In this document: piece by piece, positions 22,435 through 37,776 of the stretch
Layout of the letters: every line of letters begins with the position of its first letter
Position numbering within the stretch: the first letter of the stretch is position 1
Source: Chthoniobacterales bacterium
GTDB taxonomy: Bacteria; Verrucomicrobiota; Verrucomicrobiia; Chthoniobacterales; JACTMZ01
Direction of reading: 5' to 3'
DNA: 53,590 bases
NCBI GenBank assembly: GCA_014879535.1
Contig: JACSRX010000053.1
Span: 1 to 53,590, forward strand
Translations under genes and position numbers: made by a program
Notes under the pieces: generated by a model
Databases searched by the model: none
What the model was told of the DNA's origin: nothing
The model's input: only the letters and a program-made list of their open reading frames with translations

Positions 22435-23967
22435 ATGAGCACACTTGTTGAAGAAATCGAAGCAAAGATCAAAGGCCTCCAGGCCGGAGCCGCCCACACC
22501 AACACGGGAACCGTCCGCGAGGTCGGCGACGGCATCGCCCGCGTCGAGGGATTGAGCAATGTCATGCTCAACGAGATGGTCGAGTTCCCCGGCGGGGTGT
22601 TCGGTCTCGCCCTCAACCTCGAGGAGAACGAAGTCGGCGTCATCCTTCTGGGCGACTACAGCAACATCAAGGAGGGCGACGAGGTCAAGACGACCGGCAA
22701 GCTGCTCTCCATCCCCGTGGGCAAGGGCCTCCTGGGCCGGGTGGTCAACACCCTCGGCGAGCCGATCGACGGCAAGGGGCCCATCGCGGCGACCGCTTCC
22801 TATCCCCTTGAGAAAATCGCCCCCGGCATCATCAAACGCCGCCCGGTGACCCAGCCGGTCCAAACCGGCATCATGGCCGTCGATGCGATGATCCCGATCG
22901 GCCGCGGCCAGCGCGAACTGATCATCGGCGACCGCGCCACGGGCAAGACGACCGTCGCGGTGGATGCGATCATCAGCCAGGCCCGCCTCAACAAGAAGGG
23001 TGAGTCCTCGGGCGACAAGGATTTCCGCCCCCTCTACTCGATCTACGTCGCCGTGGGGCAGAAGAACGCCAACGTGGCGCGTGTGATCGCCACCCTCGAG
23101 AAGGAGGGCGCGCTGCCCTACACGATCGTCGTGGTGGCCTCAGCCTCCGATGACGCCGCCAGCCAATACCTCGCGCCTTTCGCCGGTGCGGCCATCGGCG
23201 AGTGGTTCATGGACAACGGCATGGACGCGCTCATCGTGTTCGACGACCTCTCGAAGCAGGCGGTGGCCTACCGCCAGATTTCCCTGCTCCTCAAGCGCCC
23301 GTCGGGCCGCGAGGCGTATCCCGGCGACGTGTTCTACCTGCATTCCCGCCTGCTCGAGCGCAGCGCACGGCTCAGCGAGGAGGCCGGCGGAGGTTCGCTC
23401 ACCGCACTGCCGATCATCGAGACGCAGGCCGGCGACGTCTCGGCCTACATCCCGACGAACGTGATCTCGATCACCGACGGCCAGATCTATCTGGAAGGCG
23501 ACCTGTTCTACCAGGGCATCCGTCCCGCCATCAACGTTGGCCTTTCGGTCAGCCGCGTGGGTTCGGCCGCGCAGATCAAGGCGATGAAGCAGGTCGCCGG
23601 CAAGATCAAGGGTGAGCTGGCGCAGTTCCGCGAAATGGCGGCCTTCGCGCAGTTCGGTTCCGATCTCGACGACAAGACCAAGGGCCTGCTCGAGCGCGGA
23701 CGCCGCATCGTCGAGCTTTTCAAGCAGCAGCAATACCAGCCGATGCCGGTTGAGATGATGTCGGCCGTCCTTTACGCCATGCAGCAGGGGCTGATGGACA
23801 AGATCGAAGTCGAGAAGATCAAGGACTTCCAAGCCAAGCTGCAGGAGTTTCTCGAGACGCGCAAGGCGGCCCTCCTCGACAAGATCCGCGAGAAGAAGGC
23901 GATCGACGAGGCGCTGGGCGCCGAGTTGAAGACCGCCCTCGACGAATTCGTCCAATTCTACAAATAA
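22435..23967 (+). CDS. atpA: ATP synthase F1 subunit alpha
   Basis: The non-catalytic nucleotide-binding subunit of the F1 hexamer, 510 residues, normal length. The N-terminal beta-barrel includes [16 protein letters not shown] and the Walker A loop is GDRATGKT (Lys about 171). The family's visible marks continue with [12 protein letters not shown] and the [33 protein letters not shown] region (positions about 23274-23380). The C-terminal helical domain follows. It starts 24 bases after atpH, with only a weak AGAGA upstream. Confidence 0.98.
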
Positions 23968-23976
23968 CGTCCGCTC

Positions 23977-26278
<2,302 letters not shown>

Positions 26279-26698
26279 GTGGCCGGCAAAATCCATTTCG
26301 AAATCGTTTCCCCGGCCGGGGTTTCCACCGCGGTGGAGGCGGATCAGGTCGTCCTGCCGACAACCTCCGGCGAGATCGGCGTCATGCCGAACCACGAGCC
26401 GCTCATGACGATGCTCGAGCCCGGTGAGTTGGCCGTCACGGCCGACGGCAAGACGACCTACGCCGCGATCGGCGAGGGGTTCGCCCAGATCACACCCGGA
26501 CGCATTTCCGTCCTCACGGACATGGTCGCCCGCGAGAGCGAGATCGACGAGGATTCGGTGGCCAAGGCCATCGAGCGCGCCCAGACGGCCTTGGCCAATG
26601 CCGCCAACATGAGTGACGAGGAGGCTGCGGCGATGGAAGCCGGCCTCAAGCGCAACCTCGCCATGCTCGGCGTCAAGCGCCGCCGGCGTTCGGCCTGA
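26279..26698 (+). CDS. atpC: ATP synthase F1 subunit epsilon
   Basis: The regulatory rotor subunit at the foot of gamma, 139 residues. The N-terminal beta-sandwich (HFEIVSPAGVSTAVEADQVVLPTTSGEIGVMPNHEPL region) is typical, with the GEIGVMPNHEPL motif clear. The C-terminal two-helix hairpin ends in Lys/Arg residues (KRRRRSA). The start is a GTG set directly against the atpD TAA, implying translational coupling. Last gene of the operon; a convergent gene lies 55 bases beyond. Confidence 0.95.
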   Translation: MAGKIHFEIVSPAGVSTAVEADQVVLPTTSGEIGVMPNHEPLMTMLEPGELAVTADGKTTYAAIGEGFAQITPGRISVLTDMVARESEIDEDSVAKAIERAQTALANAANMSDEEAAAMEAGLKRNLAMLGVKRRRRSA

Positions 26699-26719
26699 GC
26701 TTCAAGGTCGCCTTCTCCG

Positions 26720-26739
26720 AAAAACGCCGCCGTTGCGGC
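26720..26739 (-). terminator. Intrinsic terminator for the minus-strand gene at 26754-27782
   Basis: Read on the minus strand, GCCGC, an AACG loop and GCGGC form a 5-bp GC stem and then G plus five T. It lies 15 bases beyond the stop of the minus-strand gene and within the 55-base gap to atpC. The short stem makes it modest in strength. On the plus strand it has no T-run, so it would not end the atp transcript well. Confidence 0.45.
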
Positions 26740-26753
26740 TGAATCCGCAGGCT

Positions 26754-27782
26754 TCACTCGCGAAGCTGGTCGGCGAGCAGTCGTTCCAGATGGTGGACGA
26801 CAAGGTCGGCCATGGTGGGGAGGCCGGTGAAATCGTCGCAGCCGTGGTAGTCGTTGAGTTCAAGGGCCAGACTTTCCACATGTTCCGGCGGGGCGATCGT
26901 GGTCTTTCTCATGGAGGCCACCAAGCCTTGGTAGCGGCGGCTTTCCGCCTGGATGCGCCGCGCGGTCTGGGAGCGCTCCTCCTGCCGGTATTGGACGATG
27001 GTCGGGACGTTGAGATGGGCGCGGACGAGTTCGTCCACGGGTTTGTTGTCGGGGAAAAGGTGCGGACGGTAAACCTCGAGGCGCTTCTCGTGGCATTGCT
27101 GGTCGAAGTCGATCGGACGCACGCGGTATTGCACCTCCTCGAAGTCGGGGGTGATGTCCACCACGTAGTTCACCGAGCGCATGTCACCGAGCAGGCGCAG
27201 GTAGCAGCGCTCGGCGAATTTGACGAATTCCTTGGCGATGCGGACGCGGTTGAGGTCCTCGCGCCCGAGGTAATCTGCGATGAACATGTTGCCCGGCACA
27301 CCGGCGATGTGCTCCTCGATCAGGGTGTTCGCGCGGACGAGGTAGTTGATGCGGAACGGGGACAGCAGGTGCTCGAGTTCCAGCCCGTAGATGCGGGACG
27401 CGTCGGCGCATTTGACGTAGTAGTGGTCGGCATTGCCATTGAAGAGGTTGACGATGCGGATGCGGAAGGGGCGCGAGTTTCCGAAATCGCCGAAGTCGAT
27501 GCGCTCCACGGCAAGGTGGTCCGTGCGGGAAAGATCCCCGCCGATCTTGAGCATGGCGTAGATTTTCGTCAGGTGCGGCTGGAGTTCCGCATGGACCTCG
27601 GGCGGGTAGGCCACGGTGAGCCAGAGGGTTTCGTCCCCGGCGGGATTCTCGTAGGGCATCGCGGCGGTGAACCGGAGAAGATCGTCGTAGACCAACGGGA
27701 TCTCCGCCCACCTTCCGAAGTGATGCAGGTATTGCACCAAGGACGGACTGAGCGGGTAGATCTCCTTTCGTTTTGAAATCAT
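26754..27782 (-). CDS. Uncharacterised protein with protein-kinase-like (APH-like) motifs
   Basis: I do not recognise a named family. From the preferred ATG the product is 342 residues; longer in-frame readings (to 27935) add a low-complexity tail. It shows a set of motifs in the order of the aminoglycoside-phosphotransferase/protein-kinase fold: a beta-strand Lys in DHYYVKCAD (Lys124), a hinge-like GNMFIADYLGRED (about 164-176), a catalytic-loop-like LLGDMRSVN (Asp200, Asn205), and a metal-site-like RPIDFDQQ (Asp225, Asp227). No signal peptide or membrane helix is seen. The phosphoacceptor, if any, is unknown. It is monocistronic, convergent with atpC and divergent from the metal ATPase, separated from it by 220 bases. 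The fold assignment is inference by eye. Confidence 0.7.
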   Translation of the reverse strand: MISKRKEIYPLSPSLVQYLHHFGRWAEIPLVYDDLLRFTAAMPYENPAGDETLWLTVAYPPEVHAELQPHLTKIYAMLKIGGDLSRTDHLAVERIDFGDFGNSRPFRIRIVNLFNGNADHYYVKCADASRIYGLELEHLLSPFRINYLVRANTLIEEHIAGVPGNMFIADYLGREDLNRVRIAKEFVKFAERCYLRLLGDMRSVNYVVDITPDFEEVQYRVRPIDFDQQCHEKRLEVYRPHLFPDNKPVDELVRAHLNVPTIVQYRQEERSQTARRIQAESRRYQGLVASMRKTTIAPPEHVESLALELNDYHGCDDFTGLPTMADLVVHHLERLLADQLRE

Positions 27783-28002
27783 GGCCAGCGGATCGGACTC
27801 ATCTCTTCGAGCCGCGTGGAGGGTTAGTCTTCGGGGCTGGGTTTGGTGTGTAGTGGGTGCCTCTGGGTTTGTCCACTCCCGGCACGGGAGGACGGGGCCT
27901 TGGTGGGGGCGGGAATAGGTCGAGTTGGGCTGCATAGGATGCTATCCTTCCTTGGATGCGCAAGAAACGCGGTCCTCCGCGCTGTTGCGCACACCCGCGC
28001 CG

Positions 28003-30366
28003 ATGAAAGACAGCAAACCTGCCGGGCACACCATCGCCGACCACGAGGGCATCCTCGACGTCGTCCCCAAGGCCGAGGGCGAGCGGGTGGAGATCGCCTT
28101 CGATCCCTCGAAAATCAGCGAGACCGAACTCCGCGCCATTGCCGCGGAGCATCTTTCCGCGGAACCGCAGAACGCAGGGGGCATCCGGCGCTGGGTCATG
28201 CGGCTCGATGGTCAGGCCTGCGAGGCGGCGGCAGCCAAGCTTGAGAAACGAATCGAGAAGGTGCCCGGCGTGCGCCGCGCGACCGCCACCTACATCGGGC
28301 GCGTGCTCTGCCTGACCTGCGATGCCCCCCCGTCCGAGGATGCCAAGGTTCTGCAGGCGGTGAGGAGTGCGGGTGCGAATGTGCGTCCCTTGGAGCCTTC
28401 TCCGCGGGTGCGTCCGGGGTTCGTGTCCCGTGTGCTCTCCGGCGATCTCAACGAGGAGATCTCGTGCGGTATCGGGCTGGTCACGCTGGTGGCCGGCGGC
28501 ATCGTGGAGCGCACGGTCGGCACCGGTGCCTCGTCGTGGGCTCTTTTTGCACTGTCCTACCTCTTCGGCGGCCAATACGGGGTCCGTTCCGCCATCGCCT
28601 CGCTGAGGGAACGCACGCTCGACATCGATCTCCTCATGGTGCTGGCGGCGTTGGGGGCCGCACTGGTCGGCGCTCCCTTCGAGGGGGCGCTCCTGCTTTT
28701 CCTGTTCAGCTTTTCCAATGTCCTGCAGCGCCACGCCCTCGAGCGCACGCAGCGGGCGATCGAGTCGTTGCTGACACTGCGCCCGGACAAGGCGCTCCGC
28801 AAGACGGCGGCCGGATCGGAATCGGTCCCCATCGAAAGCCTCGCGGTCGGCGACATCGTCATTGTCCGTCCCGGCGAGTTGCTGCCGGTGGACGGTTTTG
28901 TCACGGAGGGGAGCACCCATCTCGACGAGTCGAGCCTCACCGGCGAGTCCCTTCCGGTCGCCAAAGGCGCGGGTGCGGAGGTCTTTGCGGGAACACTCAA
29001 TCAATCCGGGGCGATCGAGGTCCGTGTCGCCAGGATGGCCGGTGACTCGACGCTGGCCAAGATGGTGAAGCTCGTGGCCGAGGCGCAGGCCGAGAAGTCG
29101 GGAACCCAGCGTTTTCTCGAAAAGGCGGAACAGACCTATGCCGCCGGCGTCATCATTTTCACGGTTCTGGTCCTGTGCGTGCCGTGGCTGCTTTGGGGGG
29201 AGACATTCGTGGCGGCATTCTACCGGGCGATGACCGTGATGGTGGTGGCGTCGCCCTGCGCACTCATCATCAGCACCCCGGCGACCGTTCTTTCCGCAAT
29301 CGGCGGCGCGGCGCGGCGCGGTATCCTGATCAAGGGCGGTTCCCACCTCGAAACCGTCGCCCGTGTGGACATCGTCTGCTTCGACAAGACGGGCACCCTC
29401 ACGATGGGCGAGCCGGGCGTGACCGATATCGTGACGTCCTCCGGTTCCGTGGCTCTTTCCCGTGCCGGCTTGCAGGACCTGCAATGGTTGAGGTGTTGTG
29501 CCGCCGTCGAGGCGAAGTCCGAGCATCCGTTGGCCCTGGCTGTCGTTGCGGCCGCGCGCAAGGCCGGTCTTTCCGTGCCCATGGCGACGGATTTCCAATC
29601 GGCTGCGGGCAAAGGTGCCGAGGCCGATGTCGAGGGCGGGAGATTTGTGGTCGGGAGCGACCGCCATTTCACGGAACTCGGAGCGCGGAAGATGGAAGCT
29701 CTCCGGCACCTTGTTGCCACTTTGCAGGCCAAAGGCAAAACCTGCATCTGGCTGGGGAGACGTGAGGGGGATTCCCTCGAGGCGGTTGCGGCTTTCGCCT
29801 TGGCTGACACGCTGCGGCCGGAGGCCCGGACGATCGTCGCCGACCTGCATGCCGCAGGTGTGAAGAAAGTCATCATGCTCACGGGGGACAACGCTGCCGT
29901 TGCCCGGGCGATTGCCGAGGAGGCGGGCATTGACGAATTCCGGGCTCAGCTTCTGCCGGACGACAAAGTGCGTGCGATCCGCCAATTCAAGGAGGAGGGC
30001 ATCGTGATGATGGTCGGGGACGGCGTCAACGATGCGCCCGCGCTGGCCACGGCGAACCTTGGTGTGGCCATGGGCGCGGCCGGCACGGATATTGCCATGG
30101 AAACCGCGGACATCGTCCTCATGGGCGACCGGCTTGACAGCATCACGACGCTGGTCGGCATGGCGCGCCACGCCAAGCGCGTCCTGGTGCAGAACCTCAC
30201 CTTCGCTTCCAGTGTGATTGTCGTCCTCGTGGCGGCCGCGCTCGGATTTTCCCTGCCCCTGCCGGTGGGCGTGGTCGGCCACGAGGGGAGCACCGTGCTC
30301 GTGTGCCTGAACGGCCTGCGTCTGCTGGTTTACAATCCTCGGCCATCCCGCGTCCCCAAGAGTTGA
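28003..30366 (+). CDS. P1B-type heavy-metal-transporting ATPase (P1B-4-like, SPC motif)
   Basis: A 787-residue metal efflux pump from the ATG chosen; an upstream in-frame ATG (27925) adds an unlike tail. The ion-path motif in the membrane is SPC (Ser417-Pro-Cys419) rather than CPC, and the last helix reads GHEGSTVLVCLNGLRLL, close to the HEGGT signature of P1B-4 pumps (cobalt, iron(II) or zinc). The phosphorylation motif is DKTGTLT (Asp about 461), the actuator loop TGES, the SEHPLA histidine motif and GDGVNDAPALA are present. The first about 120 residues contain two HMA-like folds (one with VPGVRRATATYIGRVL) but no CxxC. Metal cannot be decided. No metal-sensing regulator gene is adjacent. 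Confidence 0.92.
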   Translation: MKDSKPAGHTIADHEGILDVVPKAEGERVEIAFDPSKISETELRAIAAEHLSAEPQNAGGIRRWVMRLDGQACEAAAAKLEKRIEKVPGVRRATATYIGRVLCLTCDAPPSEDAKVLQAVRSAGANVRPLEPSPRVRPGFVSRVLSGDLNEEISCGIGLVTLVAGGIVERTVGTGASSWALFALSYLFGGQYGVRSAIASLRERTLDIDLLMVLAALGAALVGAPFEGALLLFLFSFSNVLQRHALERTQRAIESLLTLRPDKALRKTAAGSESVPIESLAVGDIVIVRPGELLPVDGFVTEGSTHLDESSLTGESLPVAKGAGAEVFAGTLNQSGAIEVRVARMAGDSTLAKMVKLVAEAQAEKSGTQRFLEKAEQTYAAGVIIFTVLVLCVPWLLWGETFVAAFYRAMTVMVVASPCALIISTPATVLSAIGGAARRGILIKGGSHLETVARVDIVCFDKTGTLTMGEPGVTDIVTSSGSVALSRAGLQDLQWLRCCAAVEAKSEHPLALAVVAAARKAGLSVPMATDFQSAAGKGAEADVEGGRFVVGSDRHFTELGARKMEALRHLVATLQAKGKTCIWLGRREGDSLEAVAAFALADTLRPEARTIVADLHAAGVKKVIMLTGDNAAVARAIAEEAGIDEFRAQLLPDDKVRAIRQFKEEGIVMMVGDGVNDAPALATANLGVAMGAAGTDIAMETADIVLMGDRLDSITTLVGMARHAKRVLVQNLTFASSVIVVLVAAALGFSLPLPVGVVGHEGSTVLVCLNGLRLLVYNPRPSRVPKS

Positions 30367-30368
30367 CC

Positions 30369-31052
30369 ATGTTTTTCCGATTCCTCGCCTGGGTCTGCCT
30401 CTGTCTCCTCGAGTCTGTCCACGGACAGGGCAACGAGGTGCAAAGGCACGGGCTGAACTTTGAGCATTGGGTGGCCGATGCGTTTTTCGACGGATACCGC
30501 GCGCCGGGACCCACGGAAAAATGGGACATCCCTGCGTCCGCCAACAAGCGTCACGGGAACATCCCCGTCAATCCCAAGGCGACGAAATACGGTGAACCCG
30601 TGGGTCTCGGCGATGCGCTACGTCAATATGACATCGACGAACCCTTCCTGCTGGTCGTCGGCTTCTGGAAACAGGAGGGCGACACCAAGCATTTCGTCCA
30701 ATCGCTGACGGTGCGCATCACGCCGGAAACGTGGCGCGAGCTTTGGGGCGGTGTCACCCGCGCGGATCTCGAGGAACTCGACCGGTTGGTCAAGGACACG
30801 ACGCGACCCGTTGACGAAGTCCGGCGCGCAGCCTTGCTGGTGAAATCGAAGCCGCCATTCTCCGGTGCCGTCATCCAGGTGAATCCGAAGATCGACCGTT
30901 CCCAGAGGCGCCTGCAGTGCAGCATTTCCTACGCGCGTCTGTTTGCAAGCCTCGCACCCGACCGGGACCGTGGTCCCGTCGGAACTCCGGAGATTTTCGG
31001 CCGCAAGATTCCCTCCGTGAAGGGTTCGCCCCGGCGTTCGCCCTCGGGTTAA
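30369..31052 (+). CDS. Exported protein of unknown function, possibly with a PD-(D/E)XK-like fold
   Basis: A 227-residue protein with an N-terminal signal peptide (MFFRFLAWVCLCLLESVHG, cleavage near residue 20). It starts three bases after the stop of the metal ATPase, so the two may be co-transcribed. The core, LNFEHWVADAFF (Glu32), EKWDIPA (Asp53), IPVNPKATKYG (Lys70) and FLLVVGFWKQEGD, has the order and spacing of a restriction-endonuclease-like fold, but Asn68 stands where the acidic residue of the E-x-K motif would be. The C-terminus (from about residue 190) is basic and proline-rich (KIPSVKGSPRRSPSG). I give no function; the nuclease idea is weak inference. Confidence 0.6.
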   Translation: MFFRFLAWVCLCLLESVHGQGNEVQRHGLNFEHWVADAFFDGYRAPGPTEKWDIPASANKRHGNIPVNPKATKYGEPVGLGDALRQYDIDEPFLLVVGFWKQEGDTKHFVQSLTVRITPETWRELWGGVTRADLEELDRLVKDTTRPVDEVRRAALLVKSKPPFSGAVIQVNPKIDRSQRRLQCSISYARLFASLAPDRDRGPVGTPEIFGRKIPSVKGSPRRSPSG

Positions 31053-31107: not shown

Positions 31108-34100
31108 ATGTCCCGTCTCCCCAAGGCCTTGGGCCTGGTCCTTTTTCTGTGTGGCGGTGAGTGGAGCATGGCCCAGCCTTCCACCGGATCCATCGCCCGC
31201 CATGTCTGGACCAATGTGGGCGGGACAGCAGTGGCCAACCTGACCGGCTTGGCGACTTATCCGGGCTCCCCGTCCAGCACCGGCACGCTGGGAAGTTTCC
31301 AGGCTCCGCTCAACGCCGGGGACAACTACGGCGCGAGGGTTTTCGGCTGGGTGCATGCGCCGGTCTCCGGAACCTACACGTTTTACATCCACGGCGATGA
31401 CAACTGCGAACTGTGGCTCAGCACGAACAATTCGCCCGACCACCGGCGTCTTGTGGCCTCGGTTCCGGGGTGGACCGACCAGAACCAATGGACGAAATAT
31501 CCAGAGCAGACCTCTTCCGGCATAGCCTTGGAGGCTGGGAAATATTACTACATCGAAGCCCTGCACAAGGAGGGGACGGGCGGCGACAACCTCGGCGTGG
31601 CATGGTCCTACCCAGGGCAGTCGCGCGTGATCATCCCCGGCAACCGGCTCAGTCCATGGCAGAATCTCGCACCCCAAGCGGTGGCAGATTCCACCACCGT
31701 GGGGGTCGGCGGCATCGTGGGAATCCCCGTGCTTCGGAATGACATCGACCCGAACGGGGCAGCCGACATTTCCTCGGGGACTCTCGAGGTGGTTGCCCCC
31801 CCCACGCGGGGTGTCGCGGTGGTGGACGCGACCAACCGTTTGATCCGCTACACGCATACCGCCGGGAATGCACTTCCGGATTCTTTCACCTACCGTGTGC
31901 ACGATGCCGCGGGCCTTGCTTCCACGGCTGCTGTTTCCGTGAATGTGAGCGGTGACTCGCGCCTGCCGATGCCCCATGCGGCAATGCCCGCCAGTCCGCC
32001 GCCCCAAGCGCTGTCGCTGACAAATGCCTTCCCCGGATTGACTTTCTCGCAGCCGCTGGGGATCGCGTCGGTGCCGGGTGAAACGAACCGCCTTTTCGTC
32101 CTCGAAAGGGCCGGAGACATCAGGCTCATCCCGAACCTGTCCGCGCCTTCCAACAGTTTGTTCCTCGATCTCGATGGTTTGGTGAACAGCCGGACAACTG
32201 CTCCGGCCCAGGTTTTCCAGACGGGTGGCGAGCAGGGCTTGCTGGGTGCCGCATTCCATCCGGGGTTCGGGACAAACCGCAGGTTCTTCGTGTCTTATTC
32301 CCTCACGGTCGGCGGAAGCCGGTTCCAGAGGTTGTCGGAATTTTCCGCATCGACGAACAATCCGCCCACGGCGCTCACGAATTCCGAGCGGGTGATCCTG
32401 CAGCAGGCCAACGATGCGGAGAACCACAACGGGGGGGATCTGCATTTCGGACCCGACGGTTACCTCTACATGGGCTGGGGTGACGAGGGGAGCGCCAACG
32501 ACACGCTCAACAACTCGCAGACCATCACGAAGGATTTCTGGTCGTCCGTCATCCGCATCGACGTGGACTTGGAGCCGCAGGACTACACGGTGAATGATGG
32601 AAGTCCGGGTGATGATGCCAACCTGCGTCCCAACACCCATGCAGCGATCGTGCTCGATGGCAATGGCAACCCCCGTTACGAGGTCCCCGCAGACAACCCC
32701 TGGGTGGGCGCCACGCATTTCCTGGGGTCACCTGTCGCGACAAACAGCGTGCGGACCGAGTTCTGGGCCGTCGGCCTGCGCAACCCCTGGCGGATGTCGT
32801 TCGACCCGGCCACGGGTGCCCTGTGGTGTGCCGATGTCGGCCAGGACGCCCGAGAGGAGATCAATCAGATCGTCCGCGGCGGCAACTACGAATGGGCATT
32901 CCGCGAGGGCATGATTCAAGGGCCAAAATGGTCGAATCGCCCATCCGGCTGGACAGGTTCCCACCCGCCGATCTGGGATTACACGCGCGGCTCGGGGACA
33001 TTCCAGGGCTTTTCGGTCTCCGGGGGCATCGTTTACCGCGGCCAGCGCATCCCGTCACTCTTCGGGCGCTACATCTTCGCGGATTATGTCTCGGGAAACA
33101 TCTGGGCACTGGATGCATCGGGGCCATCGGTTTCCGTCGAGCGCATCGCCGGGGAGGGGGGGATCACGGGTTTCGGCCGGGATCCGTCCAACGGAGACGT
33201 GCTGCTCGCCGACATCGACAACGGGGTGATCAGGCGGCTGGTGTCCGAGTCGGTCACGAGCGGATTCCCTGCCACGCTGGCCGAGACCGGACTTTTTGCC
33301 GACCCTTCCGCCCTCGTGCCGAATCCGGGTCTCGTGGCGTATGATGTCAATCTGCCGTTCTGGTCCGACCATGCAAAAAAGCGTCGCTGGTTCGGTCTTC
33401 CGGGTGGCGCCCCGGCCTTCGGCTTCTCCCGCGAGGGCAGCTGGTCGCTTCCGGACGGTGCGGTTTGGGTGAAACATTTCGACCTGGAGACAACACGGGG
33501 CAACCCGGCGACGTCGCGGCGGCTGGAGACGCGCGTGTTCGTGCGCAATGCCGCCGGAGCCTACGGTGTCTCCTACCGATGGAACACCAACGGCACCCAG
33601 GCGACCCTTGTCGATGCCGGCGGTGAGGAGTTCGACATCAATGTCATCGAAAACGGTGTCCCCGCCGTGCAGCGCTGGCGCATCCCCTCGCAGGCCGAGT
33701 GCATGACGTGCCACTCGCCGCAGGCCGGACATGCCCTTTCATTCCGCACGCGCCAGCTCAACCGGGACGGGGAGATTGCAGGAAACGTGGGGAACCTCAT
33801 CCATCTTCTGGCCGCATGCGGTTACCTGACAGGAGAGGGGGCCACGGCGTCCGACTTGCCGCGCCATGTCGCTCCGCAGGAGGTGGCCTATTCCATGGAA
33901 GCGCGGGCCCGATCGTATCTCGCGGTCAATTGTTCGTATTGCCACAGCAGCGGAGGCTTGGCGCAGGCGGCTTGGGATGTGTCTGCCGACCGGAAACTTT
34001 ACGAGACCGGCATCGTCAACGGTTCTGCAAGCAGTGCGCTCCATCCGGATCACCGCCTGGTCGTTCCCGGGGAGGACGCGGATTCCGTGATCGTCAACCG

Positions 34101-34584
34101 CGCGGCGGCACGCAATGGATACACGCGCATGCCGCCGCTCGCCTCCAGCGTGGTGGACGAGGCCGGAGTCCAGCTCCTCATCGACTGGATACGCCTCGAG
34201 TTGCCGCATCGCCAGAGTTACGCGCAGTGGCGGGTGGCGCATTTCGGTTCCTCCACCTCCCCGCAGGGGGAACCCGGATTCGATGCCGATGGGGACGGAC
34301 GCACGAATCTTGCGGAGTTCCTTGCCGGGTCTTATCCGCAGCGTTCCGACGGTTCGCCGGGCCCAGGAATCACGCGGGGGGCTGACGGCATCGTGACGGT
34401 TTCGCTGCCGTCGTTGCCCGGACGTGGCATCCGGATCGAGACGTCGCCGGACCTGTTGGGGTGGAGTCCATGGGGCGTTGCGGGCAACGACGGCATCTCG
34501 GCCCCTCCCGGCAGCATTCTGGAGGTTGCGGCTCCGATGAATGAACCGTCAGCGTTCTTCCGCGCCGTCTTTACGGAAGAGTAG
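31108..34584 (+). CDS. Secreted PA14 / cadherin-like / sugar dehydrogenase / diheme cytochrome c fusion
   Basis: A 1158-residue secreted protein. After a signal peptide (about 1-23) come a PA14 carbohydrate-binding domain (about 25-190, with FYIHGDDNCELWLSTNN), a cadherin/Ig-like domain (about 195-285), and a beta-propeller of the glucose/sorbosone dehydrogenase type that uses PQQ (about 305-710, HNGGDLHFGPDGYLYMGWGDEG and VGLRNPWRMSFDP). A C-terminal region matches what I know of the HNE_0200/SO2930 family (AYDVNLPFWSDHAKKRRW), with two heme c sites, CMTCH (Cys865) and CSYCH (Cys942), and a final segment with a calcium-type DADGDGRTN repeat. It probably oxidises a sugar in the periplasm or outside and passes electrons to its own hemes. 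The 3' end overlaps the convergent gene by 14 bases. Confidence 0.88.
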   Translation: MSRLPKALGLVLFLCGGEWSMAQPSTGSIARHVWTNVGGTAVANLTGLATYPGSPSSTGTLGSFQAPLNAGDNYGARVFGWVHAPVSGTYTFYIHGDDNCELWLSTNNSPDHRRLVASVPGWTDQNQWTKYPEQTSSGIALEAGKYYYIEALHKEGTGGDNLGVAWSYPGQSRVIIPGNRLSPWQNLAPQAVADSTTVGVGGIVGIPVLRNDIDPNGAADISSGTLEVVAPPTRGVAVVDATNRLIRYTHTAGNALPDSFTYRVHDAAGLASTAAVSVNVSGDSRLPMPHAAMPASPPPQALSLTNAFPGLTFSQPLGIASVPGETNRLFVLERAGDIRLIPNLSAPSNSLFLDLDGLVNSRTTAPAQVFQTGGEQGLLGAAFHPGFGTNRRFFVSYSLTVGGSRFQRLSEFSASTNNPPTALTNSERVILQQANDAENHNGGDLHFGPDGYLYMGWGDEGSANDTLNNSQTITKDFWSSVIRIDVDLEPQDYTVNDGSPGDDANLRPNTHAAIVLDGNGNPRYEVPADNPWVGATHFLGSPVATNSVRTEFWAVGLRNPWRMSFDPATGALWCADVGQDAREEINQIVRGGNYEWAFREGMIQGPKWSNRPSGWTGSHPPIWDYTRGSGTFQGFSVSGGIVYRGQRIPSLFGRYIFADYVSGNIWALDASGPSVSVERIAGEGGITGFGRDPSNGDVLLADIDNGVIRRLVSESVTSGFPATLAETGLFADPSALVPNPGLVAYDVNLPFWSDHAKKRRWFGLPGGAPAFGFSREGSWSLPDGAVWVKHFDLETTRGNPATSRRLETRVFVRNAAGAYGVSYRWNTNGTQATLVDAGGEEFDINVIENGVPAVQRWRIPSQAECMTCHSPQAGHALSFRTRQLNRDGEIAGNVGNLIHLLAACGYLTGEGATASDLPRHVAPQEVAYSMEARARSYLAVNCSYCHSSGGLAQAAWDVSADRKLYETGIVNGSASSALHPDHRLVVPGEDADSVIVNRAAARNGYTRMPPLASSVVDEAGVQLLIDWIRLELPHRQSYAQWRVAHFGSSTSPQGEPGFDADGDGRTNLAEFLAGSYPQRSDGSPGPGITRGADGIVTVSLPSLPGRGIRIETSPDLLGWSPWGVAGNDGISAPPGSILEVAAPMNEPSAFFRAVFTEE

Positions 34585-35164
34585 GCAAAGGGGCTGCGCC
34601 GATCAGGTCGGCAATGGTTTTGATCCGGTCCGCCCTCGGCCCCTGCACCTCGATGACGGGGATCCCGAGGTCGAGGGTTTTGTAGATGGCCTTGAAATGC
34701 GCATCCACCCGTTCGCGGTATCCGTCGTCCGTGGGACGCACGCCGTCATTTTCAAACTCGATGGCGTAGTTCTCGCTCATGGGGATGAAGAGGATCGCCT
34801 CGAGGAACTCGCGGCAGTAGATGCGCCCGATGTCGCGGAGTGCATCGAGGAAACCGTCATCCAGGTCGGTCTGTCCCTCCTCCTTCGCATAGATGCTGTA
34901 GGCCAGCATATCCAAGGGTCCGCGGTCGAAGAACACCCGTTCCCCCTTCCTGTGGCGCAGCAGCTTCCCCATCAAATCCCCTTGAAGGATCCACATGGCG
35001 TGTTTGTCCGCTTCCCGGCCGAGACCGATCTGGAGCAGGGGGTTGAAGCTCCGCAATGAACGGTAGGCCTCCGGCTCGATCAGGAATTCGGGGAAAGCCG
35101 CGGCGCAATCCCCCAAGAGCGTCGTCTTGCCCATCGAGTGGGTTCCGCTGATGGCCAATCTCAT
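34571..35164 (-). CDS. Small P-loop ATPase/kinase-like protein (AAA_28 type)
   Basis: A 197-residue cytosolic protein. The N-terminus is a P-loop, MRLAISGTHSMGKTTLL, as in NadR-type kinases and the AAA_28 group, followed by FFDRGPLDMLAYS, a Walker-B-like Asp-Arg motif of nucleoside/nicotinamide kinase-like proteins. A late RERVDAHFKAIYKTL helix could carry the lid arginines. No DNA-binding domain is fused. It lies nine bases downstream of the hexapeptide-repeat gene in a run of minus-strand genes with cysS and ispF. The reaction cannot be stated. Its last 14 bases overlap the end of the plus-strand PA14/GSDH gene. Confidence 0.75.
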   Translation of the reverse strand: MRLAISGTHSMGKTTLLGDCAAAFPEFLIEPEAYRSLRSFNPLLQIGLGREADKHAMWILQGDLMGKLLRHRKGERVFFDRGPLDMLAYSIYAKEEGQTDLDDGFLDALRDIGRIYCREFLEAILFIPMSENYAIEFENDGVRPTDDGYRERVDAHFKAIYKTLDLGIPVIEVQGPRADRIKTIADLIGAAPLPTLP

Positions 35165-35173
35165 GGGGTGGCC

Positions 35174-35851
35174 TCAGCTGCGCGGAACGATGTCGATCTG
35201 CTGGCGGAGCTTGGCGATGGAGTTGTCCGGAAGGACGCCGCTCCATTGCGTCCCGGGATAGACCAGACAATCGCGCCCGATGACGGAACCGGGGCTGAGG
35301 ACGGCATTGCAGCCGATCTCGGAGCGGTCGCCGATGACGGCGCCGAATTTCGCCAGGCCGGTCGGCGTGGCGCTGTCGGGGCCGCGGACGATGACCTCAC
35401 CCCGGTCGAGCCGCACATTCGAGAGAATCACGCCGGCGCCGAGGTGCGCCTTGTGGCCGAGGATCGAGTCGCCCACGTAGTTGAAATGGGGAACCTCCGC
35501 CTCATCGAACACGATGCAGTTTTTGAATTCGCAGGAATTTCCGAGCACGGCGCCGTTGCCGACGATGACATTCTGCCGGATGTAGCAGCCGGCCCGGATC
35601 TCGCACCGGTCGCCGATCCAAGCCGGTCCCTTGATCATGGCGCCCTGCTCGATCACCGTGCCGTGGCCGATGTAAACCGCGTTGCTGATGAAGGGGCGGC
35701 CGATCTGCTTCCCATGGATGGCGGGTTGGAGCCGGAATTGCAGGTAGGAGGAGATGAGGGCGAGGGCTTCCCAGACGTTGGTCACCTTCTCGAAGAGCGA
35801 GCGGTGGTCGGTATGACGGAGATCGAGGAGCGAAGAGGGGGGGAAATTCAT
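35174..35851 (-). CDS. Left-handed beta-helix (hexapeptide repeat) protein
   Basis: A 225-residue protein with many hexapeptide repeats, for example VYIGHGTVIEQGAMIKGPAW and the IRQNVIVGNGAVLGNSCEFK run, so residues about 55-205 form a left-handed parallel beta-helix. This resembles the acyltransferase half of GlmU and related sugar-nucleotide acyltransferases, but the nucleotidyltransferase half is absent and the first 55 residues are a distinct helical cap. It may be an acyl/acetyltransferase or a non-catalytic relative. Neighbours are cysS upstream and the P-loop protein downstream on the same strand. Confidence 0.8.
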   Translation of the reverse strand: MNFPPSSLLDLRHTDHRSLFEKVTNVWEALALISSYLQFRLQPAIHGKQIGRPFISNAVYIGHGTVIEQGAMIKGPAWIGDRCEIRAGCYIRQNVIVGNGAVLGNSCEFKNCIVFDEAEVPHFNYVGDSILGHKAHLGAGVILSNVRLDRGEVIVRGPDSATPTGLAKFGAVIGDRSEIGCNAVLSPGSVIGRDCLVYPGTQWSGVLPDNSIAKLRQQIDIVPRS

Positions 35852-35890
35852 GGCAGGAAGAGATCAGTGATGGACGGAGGTCGTGCGTGG

Positions 35891-37303
35891 TCAATCGACG
35901 CTGCGGGTGAGTTTTGCGCCGTCCTTGGTGTCCTTCACAATCCATCCGCGGGCAAGCAATTCGTCGCGGAGCATGTCGCTGCGGCCCCAGTCCCGGGCTG
36001 CGCGTGCAGCGGTTCGTTCCCCTACCAATGCCGTGATGTCGCCGGGGATGGTCTCCGATTCCGGTTCAAGGGCGAGGATGGTGTTGATCCTGCCCCAATA
36101 GTCGAGCAGCCCGCGTGCCTGGTCCGGGGAGAGTTCGCCGGCATCCATGGCGCGGTTGGTGTCGCGGACGAGGTCGAAAAGGGCGCCGAGGGCGGCGGAG
36201 ATGTTGAGGTCGTCGTCGAGTGCCCTGCCGAAGGCGTCCTCCTCGATCGCGGGGTGGGGGGTGCCCGATGCGGAGGTGGATGCCAGGTCGGAGAGGCGGC
36301 GTCCCCATTCGTCCAGGCGCTGCAGCGCGCTGCGTGCACCCGCAAGCCCCTCGAATGTGAAGTTGAGCGGCAGGCGGTAGTGCGCGGCGATCAGGACATA
36401 GCGGACTTCGCGGCCGCTCCAGCCCTTGGCGAGAAGATCCCGCAGGGTGTGGAAGTTGCCGGCCGATTTGGCCATCTTCCGTCCGTCCACCATGAGATGG
36501 GCGCAGTGCATCCAGAGATTCACGAATTTGAGGCCGGTGCAGCATTCCGTCTGCGCAATTTCGGCCTCGTGGTGCGGGAAAATGTTGTCCACCCCCCCGC
36601 AATGGATGTCGATCCGGTCGCCGAGCAAAGCGGTGGCCATGGCGCTGCACTCGATGTGCCATCCCGGGCGCCCGCGGCCCCACGGGCTGTCCCAAGCGAC
36701 ATGACCGTCGTGTTCATCGTGGGCCTTCCAGAGTGCGAAATCGCCGATGTTCTCCTTTTCGTATTCGTCGGAGCTGACGCGTCCGGATGGTCTCAGTTCG
36801 TCGAGATTGAGATGGGCCAGCTGCCCGTAGGACGGGAAACTGGCGATGCGGAAGTAAACGGATTTGTCCTCCGCCTCGTAGGCGTGGCCCGCCGCGATCA
36901 GCTTCCCGATCATGTCGATCATCCTGGCGATATGGACGGGATCCGTGGCGCAGGGGAAACTGTCGGCCGGCTTGATGCGGAGCGCGCGCAGATCCTCGAA
37001 GAACGAGTCCTTGAAAGGTTGCGTGAACTCGGCCAGCGGCACCCCCTTTTCGAGGGCTCCCCGGATGGTCTTGTCGTCCACATCGGTGAGGTTCATCACG
37101 CGTTCCACATGGAAGCCCCGGTATTCGAGGTGACGCTGGAGGAGATCCTCGAAGATGTAGGCGCGGAAGTTCCCGATGTGGGCGTGGTTGTAAACCGTCG
37201 GCCCGCAGGTGTAGATCTTGACCGTTTTCCCACCGGGATCGAGGGGGGCGAAAGGCTCGACGGAACGGGTGAGGGTGTTATGGAACTGCAGAGGCATGGT
37301 CAT
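35891..37303 (-). CDS. cysS: Cysteinyl-tRNA synthetase
   Basis: Charges tRNA-Cys; cytosolic class I synthetase, 470 residues (typical). The HIGH motif appears as HAHIGN after the zinc-binding YTCGPTVYN start. Further marks are RVMNLTDVDDKTI, the zinc site with WHIECSAM and GGVDNIFPHHEAE, and the late DALT-type helical domain. The KMSKS signature is KMAKS here (in GRKMAKSAGNF), a Ser-to-Ala change at the third position. The start overlaps the stop of ispF by four bases, so it follows ispF in the same transcript. Confidence 0.96.
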   Translation of the reverse strand: MTMPLQFHNTLTRSVEPFAPLDPGGKTVKIYTCGPTVYNHAHIGNFRAYIFEDLLQRHLEYRGFHVERVMNLTDVDDKTIRGALEKGVPLAEFTQPFKDSFFEDLRALRIKPADSFPCATDPVHIARMIDMIGKLIAAGHAYEAEDKSVYFRIASFPSYGQLAHLNLDELRPSGRVSSDEYEKENIGDFALWKAHDEHDGHVAWDSPWGRGRPGWHIECSAMATALLGDRIDIHCGGVDNIFPHHEAEIAQTECCTGLKFVNLWMHCAHLMVDGRKMAKSAGNFHTLRDLLAKGWSGREVRYVLIAAHYRLPLNFTFEGLAGARSALQRLDEWGRRLSDLASTSASGTPHPAIEEDAFGRALDDDLNISAALGALFDLVRDTNRAMDAGELSPDQARGLLDYWGRINTILALEPESETIPGDITALVGERTAARAARDWGRSDMLRDELLARGWIVKDTKDGAKLTRSVD

Positions 37304-37776
37304 GGAAGTTCCACCGAGGCGATGGCCAGCGCCGCGATGCCTTCGCCGCGGCCGAGGGTCCCCAGTCCCTCGTTCGTGGTTGCCTTGAGTCCCACCCGCT
37401 CGACGGGAAGCCCGAGGGTGGCGGCGAGGGAGGAGCGGATGGCCCCGTGATGCGGGCCGATCTTCGGTTCCTCGGCAATGAGGGTGACGTCGATATTGTT
37501 GATGCGTCCGCCTCGGGATTCCAAGAGTTCGCGCGCGCGCGCGAGGATCTCAAGGCTGTTGATTCCGCGGTTCGCCTCGCTGGTGTCGGGGAAGTGGTGG
37601 CCGATGTCGCGTTCGCCGACCGCCCCGAGCAGCGCGTCCGCGACGGCGTGCGTGAGGACGTCGGCGTCGGAATGGCCCAGCAATCCTCGGTCATGGGGAA
37701 TGCGCACGCCCCCGAGGACGAGGGGACGTCCCTCGGCGAAGCGGTGGATGTCGTAACCGATGCCCGAAGTGTTCAC
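37300..37776 (-). CDS. ispF: 2-C-methyl-D-erythritol 2,4-cyclodiphosphate synthase
   Basis: Catalyses the cyclisation step of the MEP isoprenoid pathway, in the cytosol. From the GTG at 37776 the product is 158 residues, the normal size; longer in-frame readings are not conserved. The metal-binding D-x-H is in GIGYDIHRF, the second His is in LLGHSDADVLTHAVADALLG, and GDIGHHFPDT-type (ERDIGHHFPDT) and the final TNEGLGTLGRGEGIAALA segments are intact. ispD, often fused or adjacent, is not in the window. No good ribosome binding site precedes the GTG. It overlaps cysS by four bases and follows the suhB-like gene after 38 bases. Confidence 0.93.
   Translation of the reverse strand: MNTSGIGYDIHRFAEGRPLVLGGVRIPHDRGLLGHSDADVLTHAVADALLGAVGERDIGHHFPDTSEANRGINSLEILARARELLESRGGRINNIDVTLIAEEPKIGPHHGAIRSSLAATLGLPVERVGLKATTNEGLGTLGRGEGIAALAIASVELP

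Follow-up and report, generated by a model that had tools for sequence, protein, structure and literature searches.

A candidate free-standing bacterial kinase family with a predicted PI3K/PI4K/PIKK-type fold

The gene described here lies in a window (the whole stretch of DNA analysed) of 53,590 nucleotides from a Chthoniobacterales bacterium, and its product is probably a compact, free-standing ATP-dependent phosphotransferase whose predicted kinase fold is of the PI3K/PI4K/PIKK (PIK) type. If the structure models are right, it likely represents a new free-standing bacterial family with such a fold. An earlier note on this DNA had recognised a set of kinase-like motifs in an otherwise unfamiliar protein, had compared them with the aminoglycoside phosphotransferase (APH)/protein-kinase fold, and had proposed an undescribed small-molecule or protein kinase. 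That proposal is still the best functional statement, while the APH subclass is probably wrong. A function class can be named in this way for a gene that has no annotation in the libraries searched.

The gene and its reading frame

Upstream of the ATG at 27782, where the alignments with homologues begin, the frame stays open to 27935. Starts were inspected in 20 homologues: 15 have an ATG or GTG at the position of this ATG and the other five a CTC. Four of these five (L006, L008, L009 and L014) have an in-frame ATG three codons upstream; the fifth, L012, has no in-frame ATG in the stretch examined. Between the window gene and homologue L002 the differences at codon positions 1/2/3 are 44/26/140, indicating purifying selection on this strand and frame, so that the antisense ORF 26613-27776 is not the gene. 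A fusion partner in the 867-aa open frame of L136 was rejected because this frame looks, as judged by eye, like read-through upstream of a normal start. One genome of the window's genus has a homologue interrupted by an in-frame stop (G052:C33:104547-105572, which is L072; positions 6001-7026 in L016), and this copy looks recently inactivated or mis-assembled. The earlier note had given the gene its own terminator; a hairpin followed by a T-run is indeed present downstream of the stop, but three such sites occur in the region against 1.4 (sd 1.2) in shuffles, so the terminator is suggestive only. The features of the gene are collected in Table 1.

Table 1. Features of the candidate kinase gene in the window.
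Feature	Position	Strand	Basis
Gene of the predicted kinase family, 342 aa and stop	26754..27782	minus	ORF, codon-position differences, homologues
P105 codon, invariant; place of the Pro before strand 2 in mTOR/ATR/ATM/Vps34	27468..27470	minus	counted from ATG 27782
K124 codon, end of third N-lobe strand (putative ATP lysine, by analogy)	27411..27413	minus	model and invariance
Codons 127-130, D127 and R130 invariant; counterpart of PIK K-x-x-[DE]-x-x-R	27393..27404	minus	alignment, signature
Codons 199-205, GDMRSVN, catalytic-loop-like (D200, N205)	27168..27188	minus	motif, invariance
Codons 224-227, IDFD, metal-site-like (D225, D227)	27102..27113	minus	motif, invariance
Terminator-like hairpin (5-bp GC) then T-run, downstream of stop	26739-26726	minus	weak evidence

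Conservation of the active-site motifs

The motifs lie where they were first noted, with K124 in YYVK, D200 and N205 in GDMRSVN, and D225 and D227 in IDFD. By themselves they are weak evidence, because 20000 shuffles of the protein reproduce a strict kinase pattern in 125 cases and a loose one in 3156, and among the 254 other ORFs of the window the two patterns occur in 1 and 5, respectively. The invariance of these five residues in 116/116 distinct homologues is much stronger evidence, and it means that the general active-kinase set (Lys, catalytic Asp, Asn and metal Asp) is present without exception. The 116 rows are distinct sequences covering more than 300 model positions with at most three X, and they derive from 133 matches in 146 loci. 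Altogether 58 of the 342 positions are invariant, the lowest pairwise identity being 41.5%, and a plain count puts the chance that five chosen positions all lie among them at about 1 in 8000 draws, a rough figure with Asp, Asn and Lys favoured. The invariant residues include K124, D127, R130, E135, E137, G199, D200, M201, R202, N205, D225, F226 and D227.

Predicted fold

AlphaFold models were made for the window protein (mean pLDDT 86.9, pTM 0.84) and for L137, a homologue from another class that is 47% identical to it (pLDDT 92.3, pTM 0.90). The underlying alignments, A1 and A2, have different first sequences but share rows, so the two models are not wholly independent; A1 consists of P0001, 26 of the 66 loci from an exact-peptide scan and 11 loci from an order-wide search, and L016 was left out of it because of its in-frame stop. 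Both models have the same order of elements, with strands at 90-98, 106-112 and 118-125, a helix at 128-140, strands at 147-150 and 153-157, and helices at about 164-171 and 179-196, followed by the catalytic loop. In both, K124 sits where the third N-lobe strand ends, and the long helix 179-196 precedes the catalytic loop. Together with the residue conservation, the two confident models bear out the kinase-like fold and active-site set that the earlier note had read from the motifs.

In Foldseek, the titles of the 50 matches listed for each model all name kinase-fold proteins, with best E-values of 1.2e-4 and 1.7e-4; ordinary protein kinases hold the top values, their TM-scores being about 0.2 to 0.4. 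Realignment with VIA-align placed PI3K, PI4K or PIKK proteins in all 50 entries listed for both models. The best entry is 2x6k_A for the window model (Z 12.9, 4.3 A over 274 residues) and 7rsp_B for the L137 model (Z 13.3, 4.3 A over 264 residues), and the matches listed span Z 10.1-12.9 and 11.4-13.3, respectively, with 242-278 residues aligned at 4.0-4.8 A. VIA-align compared only the best 1000 chains from Foldseek, a set that may leave APH chains outside, and according to the tool's own warning middling Z values are common and a family missing from the list is not thereby excluded. We find the PIK-type fold persuasive because the list is coherent in two models.

N-lobe spacing and profile comparisons

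P105, K124, D127 and R130 match the N-lobe spacing of mTOR, ATR, ATM and Vps34, the distance from Pro to Lys being 19 in the family and 18 in those four enzymes. A signature combining this spacing with the catalytic and metal motifs, P-x(17,18)-K-x2-[DE]-x2-R...D-x4-N...D[FL], is present in 116/116 family rows and in 4/4 PIKs tested, compared with 0/15 HipA, 0/15 APH and 0/616 neighbouring ORFs and 11 of 20000 shuffles; its N-lobe part alone occurs in 7/616 background ORFs and 287 of 20000 shuffles. The PIK sequences were taken from PDB rows, and p110-gamma, PI4K-beta and yeast and fly Vps34 were left out because the N-lobe stretch is missing from them. The signature was drawn up after inspecting both sides, and its first version, which covered 84/116 family rows and 3/6 PIK rows, was redrawn, so that the present version supports kinship with PIKs without proving it. 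The two groups differ in the catalytic motifs themselves: PIKs have a DRH-x2-N loop and DFG, whereas the family has D200-M201-R202 with N205, and D225-F226-D227, in 116/116 rows.

Profile comparisons gave no detectable similarity between the family and PI3K/PI4K/PIKK sequences. The window gene has no match to PF00454 at E 0.01 in a search with this profile that gave weak matches in 4/145 genomes, none above the cut-off. With hhalign, the family reached a probability of at most 0.3% against PIK (6, then 8 sequences), HipA (15) and APH (15) alignments; known kinase-fold pairs reached at most 3.6% (HipA against APH, 3.6%), showing that this test is insensitive. The scores of a PIK HMM for the family did not exceed those for shuffled versions of its members (p 0.53), with 82/116 members listed and P0001 not among them; the higher score relative to neighbouring ORFs (p 3e-7) was therefore discarded as evidence of kinship and attributed to composition. 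Since the profile tests are both negative and insensitive, the PIK claim rests on the fold and the motif spacing. We conclude that the family should not be filed as a member of PF00454, although if the model is right it would work like a PIK.

The statement in the earlier note that the protein resembles no recognised family agrees with the library searches. The window protein has no match in Pfam or NCBIfam (both at E 10), in PHROGs or PADLOC (E 1), or among PDB sequences (E 10). Pfam scans of the 38 A1 members returned scattered matches common to at most three of them (best E 0.0032), and NCBIfam scans of the 38 A2 members returned matches common to at most two (best E 0.017). ParM, the sole match of a PDB profile search, was taken as chance at E 0.21. 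Among the matches listed in a search of the viral BFVD, Ser/Thr kinases of giant viruses predominate, alongside some unnamed proteins, and the titles and abstract openings of the publications among the matches listed contain no account of the family.

Distribution and genomic context

The gene is present as a single copy in the window's genome. The exact scan with short peptides yielded 66 loci with a relative, all with record titles of Verrucomicrobiota groups; its peptides came from one sequence, so it reaches close relatives only, and the profile searches covered Verrucomicrobiota, so that a restriction of the family to this phylum is unproven. Homologues occur in 17/213 genomes of the window's order, in 82/387 genomes sampled across the phylum (one match each), in 5/148 genomes of another class and in 90/100 genomes of the bacterial family f17 (77/81 near-complete ones), where a small single-domain member would provide a simple system for studying the fold and its origin. 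Several gene-bearing genomes of f17 and f15 (G229, G308, G458) are single contigs, so the gene is chromosomal there. Mobile or phage origin was rejected, given the absence of homologues from a phage collection, from viral contigs (78 pattern stretches, none confirmed as a homologue) and from plasmids (one matching piece, E 0.4, judged chance), and so was a role as a defence system, given the absence of a PADLOC match.

Within the window's genus, 6/11 listed genomes carry the gene, including the stop-bearing copy, and 5/11 do not. In a quick tree of the 116 rows, with groups labelled from record titles and family numbers, the genus groups with Verrucomicrobiales-like rows in a 73-row branch with support 100, away from the remaining families of the order to which it belongs. 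The window copy is 69-70% identical to four Roseibacillus-titled loci and 46-51% identical to those of other families of its own order. This placement suggests either horizontal transfer or a taxonomy problem, that is, a misplaced genus.

The earlier note had seen no partner genes, and this holds across the relatives. The commonest neighbour of at least 90 aa is found at 9/60 loci (six short or partial ones of the 66 were left out), and at 20 more distant loci the commonest neighbours recur in three, for the most part the three f47 loci, which are close relatives of one another. For small frames (40-199 aa, at most 600 bp away) the maximum is 9/81 loci. One of them, a small ORF with shared sequence just upstream of the gene and on its strand, occurs at 9/81 loci; all nine belong to the L006-L014 group, and the window's genus showed none within 600 bp. 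The gene travels alone, and for lack of a widely conserved neighbour an operon function was rejected.

Alternative kinase families and reactions

The predicted PIK-type fold has to be weighed against other kinase-fold families. The subclass favoured by the earlier note would make the protein a small-molecule kinase of the APH/choline-kinase group, with the likeness to PIKs reflecting the shared kinase fold only. The APH family has a kinase fold with the G-D-x4-N and DF-type motifs in common with the present family, so that G-D-x4-N and I-D-F-D fit it equally well, and its genes are abundant in these genomes (35/38). However, APH (PF01636) gives no Pfam match at E 10, the N-lobe signature is absent from all 15 APH relatives, the hhalign probability is negligible as given above, and every VIA-align entry listed for either model is a PI3K, PI4K or PIKK. 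Thus, the kinase part of the earlier assignment stands, PI3K/PI4K/PIKK proteins are closest among the matches listed, and we regard the APH reading as unlikely.

HipA offers another comparison, as a well-known native bacterial atypical protein kinase (PMC9758233). A HipA-like protein would be a Ser/Thr protein kinase acting on a tRNA synthetase or a similar housekeeping protein, and HipA_C genes do occur in 13/38 genomes of the order. The window protein differs from this family in giving no HipA_C (PF07804) match in Pfam at E 10, the only such match of its genome lying elsewhere (G000:C73). The 15 HipA relatives lack the N-lobe signature and fare no better in hhalign, HipA proteins, like APH, are not among the 50 VIA-align entries listed for either model (drawn from Foldseek's best 1000 chains), and no neighbour of at least 90 aa is common to more than 9/60 loci and none of 40-199 aa to more than 9/81, in a count of generic neighbours rather than of HipB itself. 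Taken together, these results make a HipA-like kinase decidedly improbable.

The fold does not reveal the reaction, as exemplified by SelO, which has a kinase fold and performs AMPylation. The family could accordingly catalyse another reaction of this sort or serve as a nucleotide-dependent scaffold, and both the departure of DMR and DFD from the PIK consensus and the further invariant polar residues N112, N115, D119, E156, H158, R181, K184 and E185, which are unaccounted for, fit such a role. The full K/D/N/D set, however, is invariant in 116/116 homologues, unlike in a pseudokinase, and we consider this reading very unlikely. A genuine lipid kinase phosphorylating phosphatidylinositol is hardly to be expected at all: the top structural similarity among the matches listed is to Vps34, with PI4K-beta close behind, but Pfam at E 10 gives no lipid-binding domain in the window protein, and inositol-1-phosphate synthase was found neither here nor in 55/61 f17 genomes, although scavenged inositol is possible.

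Proposed function and substrate

For the predicted PIK-type phosphotransferase, analogy with known kinases would assign K124 of the third N-lobe strand to holding the ATP phosphates, with E135 or E137 of the next helix as its probable partner. The catalytic aspartate would be D200, with Mg bound by N205 and D225, and the segment 153-161 may form the hinge. The lack of both a recognised additional domain and a conserved neighbour makes it probable that the predicted kinase works by itself on a common substrate. This substrate is unlikely to be phosphatidylinositol, since inositol-1-phosphate synthase (PF01658) is found in 6/61 f17 genomes (57/61 carry the candidate kinase gene, all six included) and was not found in the window's genome, an assembly that is 95.86% complete. 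A protein (Ser/Thr), a common metabolite or a non-inositol lipid head group is more likely, and by inference we lean slightly towards a protein.

The family is comparable to PI3K/PI4K/PIKK enzymes (Vps34, PI4K-beta, mTOR, ATR, ATM and Tel1) in its predicted fold, over 242-278 residues with Z 10.1-13.3, and in the order of P...K-x2-[DE]-x2-R and D-x4-N...D[FL]. Eukaryotic enzymes of this group carry helical, FAT, C2 or HEAT regions, unlike the bacterial gene product of 342 aa. PIK-fold kinases are central regulators in eukaryotes, and to our knowledge the bacterial ones known so far are mostly injected effectors. The Legionella proteins LepB, AnkK and MavQ are PI-kinase effectors according to PMC9758233, and the family is likened to them by this description only, as bacterial kinase-fold proteins linked to PI kinases; they are injected effectors, whereas the present gene occurs as a single copy in Verrucomicrobiota. 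A more far-reaching version, to which we give a rather low probability, is that the family is a native, housekeeping PIKK/PI3K-type lineage within Verrucomicrobiota, which would have the fold of mTOR, ATR and Vps34 in minimal form, phosphorylate proteins of a core process and possibly stand near the stock of the eukaryotic enzymes.

Surroundings of the gene in the window

The candidate kinase gene lies tail-to-tail with the gene for the ATP synthase epsilon subunit (26279-26698), which closes a series of ATP synthase alpha, gamma, beta and epsilon genes in their usual order on the plus strand (22435-26698). On its other side the neighbour, in head-to-head arrangement, encodes a P-type ATPase; the ORF of this gene spans 27925-30366 and was scanned from the ATG at 28003. 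The ATPase gene, at 28003-30366 on the plus strand, points away from the candidate kinase gene, a pairing kept in at most 9/60 loci. Further along the plus strand, the ORFs at 30303-31052 and 35138-37450 (249 and 770 aa) have no Pfam match at E 1e-4. Between them, a 1158-aa ORF at 31108-34584, also on the plus strand, has PA14, Big_9 and glucose/sorbosone dehydrogenase matches and a sub-cut-off cytochrome-like match, and is perhaps a secreted oxidoreductase.
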